From an uncultured Pelagibacteraceae bacterium (lineage in GTDB: Bacteria > Pseudomonadota > Alphaproteobacteria > Pelagibacterales > Pelagibacteraceae): 64,000 nt of DNA. Under the pieces are notes generated by a model. It did not search any database. It was given only the letters and a program-made list of their open reading frames with translations, and was not told the DNA's origin. Position 1 is the first letter of the stretch. Each line of letters opens with the position of its first letter. The stretch is from assembly GCA_902633185.1 (NCBI GenBank), contig CACPFN010000004.1:1-64000 (forward strand), written 5' to 3'. Position numbers and translations under genes: made by a program. Positions 7,643 through 9,294 of the stretch are shown here, one piece after another.

Positions 7643-7756
7643 ATGATTATGAAAAAAAAAAATTTCATTGCAAAGGATCTGTATTCTAAAAAATATAAGC
7701 CTAGAGTTATTAAGCCAAAAAAAGGAAAAGGTAGTTTCGTAAGAAAAAAAAAATAA
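7643..7756 (+). CDS. ArfA-like ribosome-rescue mini-protein
   Basis: A 37-residue very basic peptide starting at 7643 (a second Met is codon 3) and ending one base before the stop of the convergent gene. Its core, LYSKKYKPRVIKPKKGKGS then FVRKKK, resembles the ArfA family signature: a leucine/phenylalanine-arginine-x-arginine-valine segment followed by KKGKGSY-R-K. ArfA recruits release factor 2 to ribosomes stalled on mRNAs lacking a stop codon. The protein is shorter than E. coli ArfA (72 residues) and has no hydrophobic tail, which in E. coli is removed anyway. It follows the regulator gene by one base after its stop. The small size makes the call moderately confident. Confidence 0.68.
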   Translation: MIMKKKNFIAKDLYSKKYKPRVIKPKKGKGSFVRKKK

Positions 7757-8362
7757 TTATCTTAGAATATCAATATTAAAACTTATCACTATCCTATCCT
7801 CATCTGATAAATTGATACCAACCGAATGAGGAAGATAAGCTGGAAAGAGTAATAAGTCTCCTTCTACTGGTTGAATTTGTGCAATATTCATATTTAATTC
7901 TGTTTTTTTATCGCTTAAAGGTATTCTTTCTCTTGCAATCTGATTTGGATTAGAAACTCTAAATGATCCACAATTTTGTGGAGCTTTAACATAATAAGCT
8001 GCACTTAAATAATTGTTAGGATGTGTGTGTTCTAAATTAAAGTTATTTTTTTTGTTAATTATTGCCCACATCTCTGTTAAGTTAACTTTGCCAGGTGCGT
8101 AATGCCATCCATACTCTTTAAATACGTCAGCAACATATTTTTGTATATCTGTAAAAAATTTAAATGGGGCTTTTTCTTTATCTTTTAAATCAAATGGTTT
8201 TGAATGCCAACCACCTTGGTTTGATCTTGCCAATCCCTTTTTATCAACTTCGTATAATTCATAAATATATTTTGATAAATTTTGATTATGCTCTTTGTGG
8301 TTATCTAATTTATATTGAAAAATTGGTAGAGGAAAAAACTTAAGTATTCTTTTTTCATTCAT
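7757..8362 (-). CDS. Putative 2-oxoglutarate/Fe(II)-dependent oxygenase (TIGR02466-like)
   Basis: A 201-residue protein of the short 2OG-Fe(II) oxygenase family common in marine bacteria and phages. The iron-binding facial triad is likely in LEHTHPNNYLSAAYYV (first His) and FPAYLPHSVGIN (second His), and the Arg of DRIVISFNI would bind 2-oxoglutarate. A typical N-terminal segment, FFPLPIFQYKL, and a GGWHSKPFDL motif are present. The substrate is unknown. It lies three bases downstream of the PfkB kinase gene and is probably transcribed with it. Confidence 0.85.
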   Translation of the reverse strand: MNEKRILKFFPLPIFQYKLDNHKEHNQNLSKYIYELYEVDKKGLARSNQGGWHSKPFDLKDKEKAPFKFFTDIQKYVADVFKEYGWHYAPGKVNLTEMWAIINKKNNFNLEHTHPNNYLSAAYYVKAPQNCGSFRVSNPNQIARERIPLSDKKTELNMNIAQIQPVEGDLLLFPAYLPHSVGINLSDEDRIVISFNIDILR

Positions 8363-8364
8363 AA

Positions 8365-9294
8365 CTACAATCTAGCACCTATTTGTTGTATTACTCTTGA
8401 TGACATCTCTCGCCCTTTATTTAGACTTTCAGATGTACTTAAATTATTTAAATTTCCGTGTAAAAAACCTGCAGCAAATAAGTCTCCTGCGCCAGTAAGA
8501 TCTTTAATGTTTAAGTTATTTTCAATTCCGTTTTCAACAATTTCTTCGCCATTTATTGATATAGCTCCTTTCTCTCCTCTAGTAATAACAACTAATTTTT
8601 TTAAATTCTTTCCAAAATTAATTACATCTTTAAAATCTTTAGCATCAATTAATGACATCATTTCCTGTTCGTTAGCAAATGTTATATCTAACTTATTTTT
8701 AACCAAATCTAAAAAATGTGGTTTGTGTCTATCTACACAAAATTGATCCGATAATGACATTGCTACCTTATTTGCGCTTTTGATGGCTTTTTCAAATGCT
8801 TTTTTTGGATCACCTTCGTCCCACAAATAACCCTCTAAAAATATCATTTCAGAATTCTTAACAATATTAGCATCTACATCGTTTTCGTTAATTTTTCCTG
8901 CTGTTCCAAGATATGTACACATTGTTCTCTCTGAGTCTGGAGTTACTAAAATTAAACATGTTCCAGTTGGTAATTCTTCTTTCTTCTTCATATAAAAATA
9001 TTCAACGTTTTCTGATTTTAGACCGGCTTCATATTTACCACCTAGTTCATCATCACTCACTTTTCCAATAAAACCAGACTTGTTTCCAAGTTGAGATAAT
9101 CCAACAATTGAATTTGCTACTGAACCACCCGAAATAGTTTTTTCAATTTTTAAATGTGACAACATTGATTTAAATTCCTTGTCATCAAAAATAAGCTTCA
9201 TCGTACCTTTTGTTAAGTTATTTTGATTAATGAAGTTTTCATCAACTTTACAAATTACATCTACGATTGCATTCCCTATTCCTAAAATTTTCAT
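8365..9294 (-). CDS. PfkB-family carbohydrate/nucleoside kinase (adenosine-kinase-like)
   Basis: A 309-residue ribokinase-fold enzyme. Residues 1-15 hold the first strand, LGIGNAIVDVICKV; the substrate-binding glycine segment SGGSVANSIVGLSQLG follows near residue 56; the second PfkB signature DLTGAGDLFAAGFLHG, with the catalytic Asp, is near residue 265. This arrangement matches the adenosine-kinase-like or sugar kinases of alphaproteobacteria; the substrate cannot be decided from sequence alone. One base separates its start from the nth stop, so it belongs to the dapB-nth-kinase-oxygenase run. Confidence 0.9.
   Translation of the reverse strand: MKILGIGNAIVDVICKVDENFINQNNLTKGTMKLIFDDKEFKSMLSHLKIEKTISGGSVANSIVGLSQLGNKSGFIGKVSDDELGGKYEAGLKSENVEYFYMKKKEELPTGTCLILVTPDSERTMCTYLGTAGKINENDVDANIVKNSEMIFLEGYLWDEGDPKKAFEKAIKSANKVAMSLSDQFCVDRHKPHFLDLVKNKLDITFANEQEMMSLIDAKDFKDVINFGKNLKKLVVITRGEKGAISINGEEIVENGIENNLNIKDLTGAGDLFAAGFLHGNLNNLSTSESLNKGREMSSRVIQQIGARL

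Follow-up and report, generated by a model that had tools for sequence, protein, structure and literature searches.

A short ArfA-type gene in SAR11 bacteria without the hairpin form of non-stop control

Does a very small, lysine-rich reading frame of a SAR11 genome encode a ribosome-rescue factor of the ArfA type, and how would such a factor be supplied to the cell? The window analysed here is a stretch of 64,000 nucleotides from an uncultured Pelagibacteraceae bacterium (assembly GCA_902633185.1, contig CACPFN010000004.1), and its forward-strand ORF at 7643-7756 translates into a basic 37-residue peptide, MIMKKKNFIAKDLYSKKYKPRVIKPKKGKGSFVRKKK, which the first-pass annotation had put forward as a miniature ArfA. 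The ORF exists as described, but the conserved product is probably 35 residues long: homologues start at the window's second ATG, and we therefore place the arfA-like gene at 7649-7756 on the forward strand (35 codons plus stop), with ATG 7643 and TTG 7631 as alternative upstream starts, the former possible and less favoured by the homologues. The length had also been described as half that of ArfA, which is right for the 72-residue E. coli ORF; against mature ArfA, reported to span 52-55 residues (PMC6299226), it is about two thirds.

The profile check with ArfA models suggested at that stage came out in favour of the assignment, since the peptide exceeds the gathering score of Pfam ArfA (PF03889) with 25.9 bits against 25.5 (E = 6.7e-6), a margin of 0.4 bits. 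A phmmer search against the PDB chains of solved ribosome complexes matched it, ungapped, to E. coli ArfA residues 12-44 (E 0.006 to 0.016), and hhalign between 42 SAR11 peptides and 12 ArfA proteins that other genomes of the phylum encode gave a probability of 97.5% (E 8e-12), again with no gap. Neither an NCBIfam scan of the peptide nor a comparison with DUF7230 (PF23876) returned a match at E <= 1, and Rfam found one tRNA in the window and nothing else. Four elements of E. coli ArfA have an equivalent on the forward strand: (i), the N-terminal segment NFIAKDLYSKKY (7661-7696) corresponds to N14-F25, which is the decoding-centre and RF2-contact part in E. coli, with N14 and L20 invariant and F25 Y or F in relatives; (ii), the R-V pair (7703-7708) corresponds to R28-V29, as judged from position counts over 89 relatives; (iii), the KKGKGS core (7718-7735) corresponds to K33-S38, the mRNA-channel segment, according to the phmmer alignment and the position counts; and (iv), the basic end FVRKKK (7736-7753) corresponds to residues 39-44, with no hydrophobic tail after it. 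The core and the preceding R-V pair, on which the original proposal had been built, thus both align gap-free to E. coli ArfA. Judged by these alignments the peptide is a genuine short ArfA with a putative function in ribosome rescue, and it is the single PF03889 match of its own genome (1.16 Mb, 42 contigs, 82% complete).

Conservation across SAR11 had been named beforehand as the refuting test, and the R-V and KGKGS positions proved to be kept there, beyond a mere richness in lysine. PF03889 matches occur in 237 of 297 Pelagibacteraceae genomes at E <= 0.01 (160 of 297 over the curated cut-off) and in 102 of the 127 family genomes that are at least 90% complete; the best 80 of 292 confirmed relatives in named genomes all belong to Pelagibacteraceae, Pelagibacter or Pelagibacterales (SAR11). 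Of 91 arfA loci read, the pattern K[KR][GS]KG[SAT] yielded a frame in 90 and missed L053 (it has KPRKGKGS); after L104 was dropped for undetermined residues, 89 relatives were left, with products of 33-48 residues in SAR11. Throughout these 89, N14, L20 and R41 (E. coli numbering) are invariant, the F25 equivalent is Y or F, R28 is R or K and V29 is V, I or M. K33-S38 is also present in 89/89, an invariance largely built in, as part of this motif was used for picking the frames, so that the conservation argument is carried by N14, L20 and R41, which were not selected for. In an alignment of 42 distinct SAR11 peptides the conserved positions are those of ArfA. The gene is under purifying selection in SAR11: the median pairwise dN/dS is 0.21 over the 1,086 of 3,916 pairs with 0.1 < dS < 1.2, pairs that share sequences and are therefore non-independent, and dN exceeds dS in about 0.1% of the 1,086.

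The gene also has a recurrent chromosomal position. Upstream of it in the window lies a winged-helix gene of the OmpR/PhoB C-terminal type (PF00486; 7084-7641, forward strand), in whose protein Pfam found no receiver domain. On the other side, convergent on the reverse strand, stand a 2OG-Fe(II) oxygenase gene (PF13759/TIGR02466; 7757-8362) and a PfkB-family kinase gene (8365-9294), named by eye, which is the usual convergent neighbour of SAR11 arfA. The arfA stop ends at 7756 and the oxygenase ORF at 7757 with zero intervening bases, in keeping with the closeness to the convergent stop remarked on earlier. Beside arfA, the winged-helix gene was found in 80 of 90 loci and a PfkB-family gene likewise in 80 of 90; the oxygenase gene was matched at seven of the 90, window included, three of these being weak (26-30% identity). 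In the window and a few relatives it separates arfA from the PfkB gene. At 55 of the 80 winged-helix loci the arfA start overlaps the TGA stop of the upstream gene by 4 nt (NTGA), with CTGA in two more; at 22 of 80 it lies anywhere from 32 nt upstream to 7 nt downstream of the stop's end, and at one locus 54 nt downstream of it. The window belongs to the class of 22, its winged-helix TAA being followed by ATG codons 1 and 7 nt on. Translation in tandem with the winged-helix gene is thus the likely route of ArfA supply. The winged-helix protein itself is mostly 32-54% identical between relatives and diverges more than the arfA gene that it often overlaps. In one SAR11 genus arfA lies elsewhere, beside a sodium:solute symporter gene (scanned at L009, seen by eye at L003 and L019).

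Non-stop control of arfA in E. coli has been published (PMC3989581); in E. coli and others it is a regulatory feature that stands outside the Pfam definition of ArfA. The strongest hairpin between core and stop in the 89 SAR11 genes has a median of -4.7 kcal/mol (strongest -11.0, median z +0.19), whereas 16 other arfA genes of the phylum, namely those of 26 non-SAR11 loci that matched a KGKG pattern, have one of -24.7 kcal/mol. Fourteen of these 16 lie at -19.3 or stronger and two at -11.2 and -14.1, in agreement with the published control. Given this difference, the hairpin form of non-stop control is absent from SAR11 arfA. Two further statements of the first-pass annotation can be read in this light: the lack of the tail is plain from the peptide, which ends at FVRKKK with no hydrophobic stretch, the absence of tail and hairpin being measured against the same 16 genes, and the lack of the gammaproteobacterial control stands for its intragenic hairpin form. 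We infer from this that ArfA would be supplied constitutively in SAR11.

The partners that such a factor would need, and those beside which it would work, are largely in place. The window's own genome encodes an alpha-type tmRNA, SmpB, RF1 and RF2. Among 99 genomes of the family, 81 have a match to such a tmRNA (80 of these above the cut-off) and 84 a match to SmpB. No protein of ArfB size (GGQ domain, about 140 residues) was seen with PF00472 in 60 genomes, where the matching frames measure 259-374 residues, the exceptions being one of 5,699, a 79-residue fragment and a 150-residue frame at a contig end; the window peptide itself has no GGQ motif. The question of whether tmRNA and ArfB accompany the gene is thus answered for the own genome by the presence of tmRNA with SmpB, ArfB not being seen. 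RF2 keeps W319 and F217 in six of six sequences, and position 198 is V in five and I in the own genome; with the roles of these residues taken from PMC5378476, SAR11 RF2 keeps the ArfA pocket.

Several residues depart from E. coli ArfA. Of the 89 relatives, 78 have K or R in place of A18, 83 have D or E in place of L19 and 88 have K or R in place of L24, the register of this segment being uncertain. In E. coli, A18T is reported to inactivate ArfA, and L19, L24 and F25 to bind RF2 (PMC5378476), so that the charged positions 18, 19 and 24 count against the short-ArfA reading. Most of E. coli residues 1-13 are absent from SAR11 ArfA, and at the other end the window peptide has its last residue at the position of K44, position 45 being empty in 46 of 89 relatives. 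Because E. coli ArfA truncated below Asn47 is reported to be inactive (PMC5378476), the activity of so minimal a factor, as first suggested, is putative. There is nevertheless a precedent for a short rescue factor that is apparently not made from non-stop mRNA, the 40-residue ArfT of Francisella (PMC6299226), which shows that a short factor can work.

We consider it highly probable that the window gene is a short ArfA that would rescue ribosomes by an RF2-type mechanism and be supplied from an ordinary mRNA with a stop codon. Where a ribosome has stalled at an mRNA's 3' end and its mRNA entry channel is empty, the lysine-rich end KKGKGSFVRKKK would insert into that channel, while the N-terminal segment would occupy the decoding centre and keep a release factor, most probably RF2, in the open conformation, after which the GGQ motif of RF2 would free the nascent chain. 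Ribosome binding, use of RF2 and peptide release by the SAR11 protein are deduced here from its likeness to ArfA. Unlike E. coli arfA, the SAR11 gene would be read from an mRNA with a stop codon, usually in tandem with the winged-helix gene, and the amount of ArfA would probably be set by this operon and not by failure of tmRNA. The short ArfA would work in parallel with tmRNA-SmpB, ArfB not having been found in these cells.

Other explanations must be weighed against this one. A lysine-rich ORF arising by chance might be expected of an AT-rich genome, the window having 29% GC and poly-A stretches, but the conserved locus, purifying selection and the clean absence of the whole gene in other genomes refute this explanation, to which we give practically no credence; it is the Pfam ArfA score, the shared chromosomal position in relatives and purifying selection that place the peptide beyond chance. 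Nor do we find it easy to believe that the peptide is a small basic binder of ribosomes or RNA, serving storage, assembly or hibernation and merely resembling ArfA: its charge alone would favour RNA binding and several E. coli contact residues differ, yet the conserved positions are those of ArfA, without gaps, and a related small peptide occurs in part of the arfA-less genomes, all of which makes such a binder very improbable. A rival concerning supply holds that arfA is still kept low by trans-translation, slippage on A-runs or an RNase cut yielding the non-stop mRNA. In its favour, the window ORF carries two A-runs, of 11 and 10 bases, one close to each end; SAR11 arfA has no hairpin, however, and lysine is encoded by AAA in 674 of 807 cases in the arfA cores against 349 of 394 in nine window genes, and on balance this form of control seems improbable. 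Codon bias as a sign of slippage was rejected, AAA not being over-used for lysine in the arfA cores.

Closer to the preferred reading is a short factor of the ArfT kind, free of non-stop control and opening RF1 as well as or instead of RF2. Like ArfT as described in PMC6299226, the SAR11 peptide is short (35 against 40 residues), has a basic, KG-containing end and has no terminator, and charged residues take the place of L19 and L24, which contact RF2 in E. coli. However, the peptide follows ArfA in its KKGKGS core and in an aromatic residue at position 25 (reported missing in ArfT), and SAR11 RF2 retains the pocket residues, so that we hold use of RF1 in the manner of ArfT to be unlikely. Compared by description, the two share shortness, a basic end and freedom from non-stop control (PMC6299226), while ArfT carries KKGGSTNKK and reportedly no hydrophobic residue at 25, in which the SAR11 form differs; ArfT is reported to be wide but sporadic in distribution (PMC6514570), and SAR11 ArfA may be its kin.

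With ArfA itself (YhdL, PF03889) the SAR11 peptides share, ungapped, the core N..I..L....[FY]..RV..KKGKGS[YF].R, and an RF2 with the ArfA pocket is encoded in the same genome. They differ from the E. coli protein in being 33-48 and not 72 residues long, in having neither hydrophobic tail nor intragenic hairpin, in their short N-terminus and charged positions 18, 19 and 24, and in their alphaproteobacterial host. BrfA of Bacillus, again compared by description, has in common with the proposed mechanism an RF2-dependent rescue with a basic tail in the mRNA channel (PMC6881298); it differs in its 62-72 residues and its control by a terminator, and an independent origin is reported to be favoured (PMC6881298). 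DUF7230 (PF23876), to which Pfam gives no function, shares with SAR11 ArfA the pattern N-P-x-A-[KR]-x-L and K-x-Y-x-R-K and differs in having no GKGS.

Some genomes of the window's genus, 20 in all, have no PF03889 match, and arfA must hence be dispensable. All 17 arfA-less loci that were examined have about 45 nt or less, and no arfA, separating the end of the winged-helix gene from the PfkB stop; in the remaining three of the 20 genomes PfkB had no near match. Run on the 60 family genomes left unmatched, a SAR11 profile picked up 12 more, ten of them from one genus with a different form, exemplified by NPVAKALRTPKFKKRIIKDKKKYNRKK, which falls just short of the Pfam DUF7230 cut-off (26.6 bits, cut-off 27). 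SAR11 peptides of this YNRK form score 19.9-26.6 bits against PF23876, below that cut-off, and those of the window's genus gave no match at E <= 1. Small basic proteins of the YNRK form were seen in arfA-less SAR11 at L117-L126, L391-L399 and L401-L403. A profile, A3, made from mixed YNRK-form peptides of SAR11 and other Alphaproteobacteria (its member L375 is a clear DUF7230 at 42.8 bits), detected a locus in 12 of the 20 genomes of the window's genus that have no arfA; two of the twelve (G003, G294) were inside A3, having first been found with profiles lacking them. A second A3 locus was found in none of 42 arfA-bearing genomes of that genus, 41 of which matched at arfA itself and one not at all. 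The contrast of 12/20 against 0/42 has a Fisher p of 6e-8, for genomes that are not independent and come from few clades. A tree of the PfkB neighbour, built from 24 of 32 arfA loci, 13 of 17 arfA-less loci and one outgroup, the window's own locus (cut) being left out, groups all 24 arfA rows together, splits the arfA-less rows between two groups and requires two changes for the YNRK label; few independent events thus underlie the contrast. Eleven of the 12 YNRK loci in the window's genus share one neighbourhood, near a photolyase-type (FAD_binding_7) gene, and in eight arfA-less genomes neither arfA nor the YNRK form was found. Profile A3 compared by hhalign with SAR11 ArfA gave 97.9%, and with ArfA of other genomes 92.2%, values that short basic profiles can inflate.

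Across the Alphaproteobacteria, PF03889 matched 12 of 385 genomes and a broader profile 31 of 372, three in the window's family in each case, several of the weak class-level matches falling in long frames and being possibly spurious. At this search sensitivity, other members of the class appear to carry such genes sporadically. The matches read from the sister family within the order are divergent forms (E 7e-5 to 8e-4). Scattered ArfA-like genes, some with longer ends, occur in other Alphaproteobacteria (L106, L107, L110, L111, L112 and L113), and L113 adjoins an ORF that is, by eye, possibly phage-like. ArfA has been noted in a pelagiphage (PMC12753301) and in a Citromicrobium phage (PMC8953757). 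An IMG/VR scan matched at least 600 stretches, at least 193 of them encoding relatives, and 80 loci were kept, one of which matches a gene of the window's neighbourhood (2OG); endolysin, head or exonuclease genes are present at the five that were checked. A tblastn search with the 35-residue peptide against INPHARED phages gave no match despite the published pelagiphage ArfA; the BLAST low-complexity filter is a likely cause, and we give this negative no weight. At 14 of the 80 IMG/VR loci the ArfA stretch lies inside a phage protein of 111-142 residues. These larger proteins are at L144, L145, L146, L163, L175, L178, L180, L192, L195, L199-L202 and L206; two compared with PHROGs both end in phrog_17747 and one also has phrog_2423, phage families with no assigned function.

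It is tempting to speculate that SAR11 ArfA, the YNRK/DUF7230 peptides and the marine-phage module form one hairpin-free superfamily of miniature rescue factors, swapped among SAR11 lineages, which would be a standing second route beside tmRNA and not a back-up, and which phages would carry, on its own or embedded in a larger protein, so that ribosomes keep being recycled in the infected cell; we regard this picture as doubtful, if worth stating.

A 2024 survey with nucleotide profiles reported arfA in none of 2,376 Alphaproteobacteria and restricted it to Gammaproteobacteria, some Betaproteobacteria and ten species of the Bacillus group (PMC11633108); this survey and the reviews consulted limit ArfA to Beta- and Gammaproteobacteria, one of them adding a Bacillus group. 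Our search of the literature on ArfA in SAR11, alphaproteobacterial ribosome rescue, phage ArfA and DUF7230, whose coverage left out most subscription journals, brought up no report that we recognised of the SAR11 chromosomal gene. In the alphaproteobacterial family studied here, carrying ArfA is the norm, and the form carried is free of the control to which ArfA owes its back-up role. Genomes that have arfA can be set against close relatives that do not, as a contrast provided by nature, and DUF7230, so far a family with no function, would gain a testable one through its profile link.
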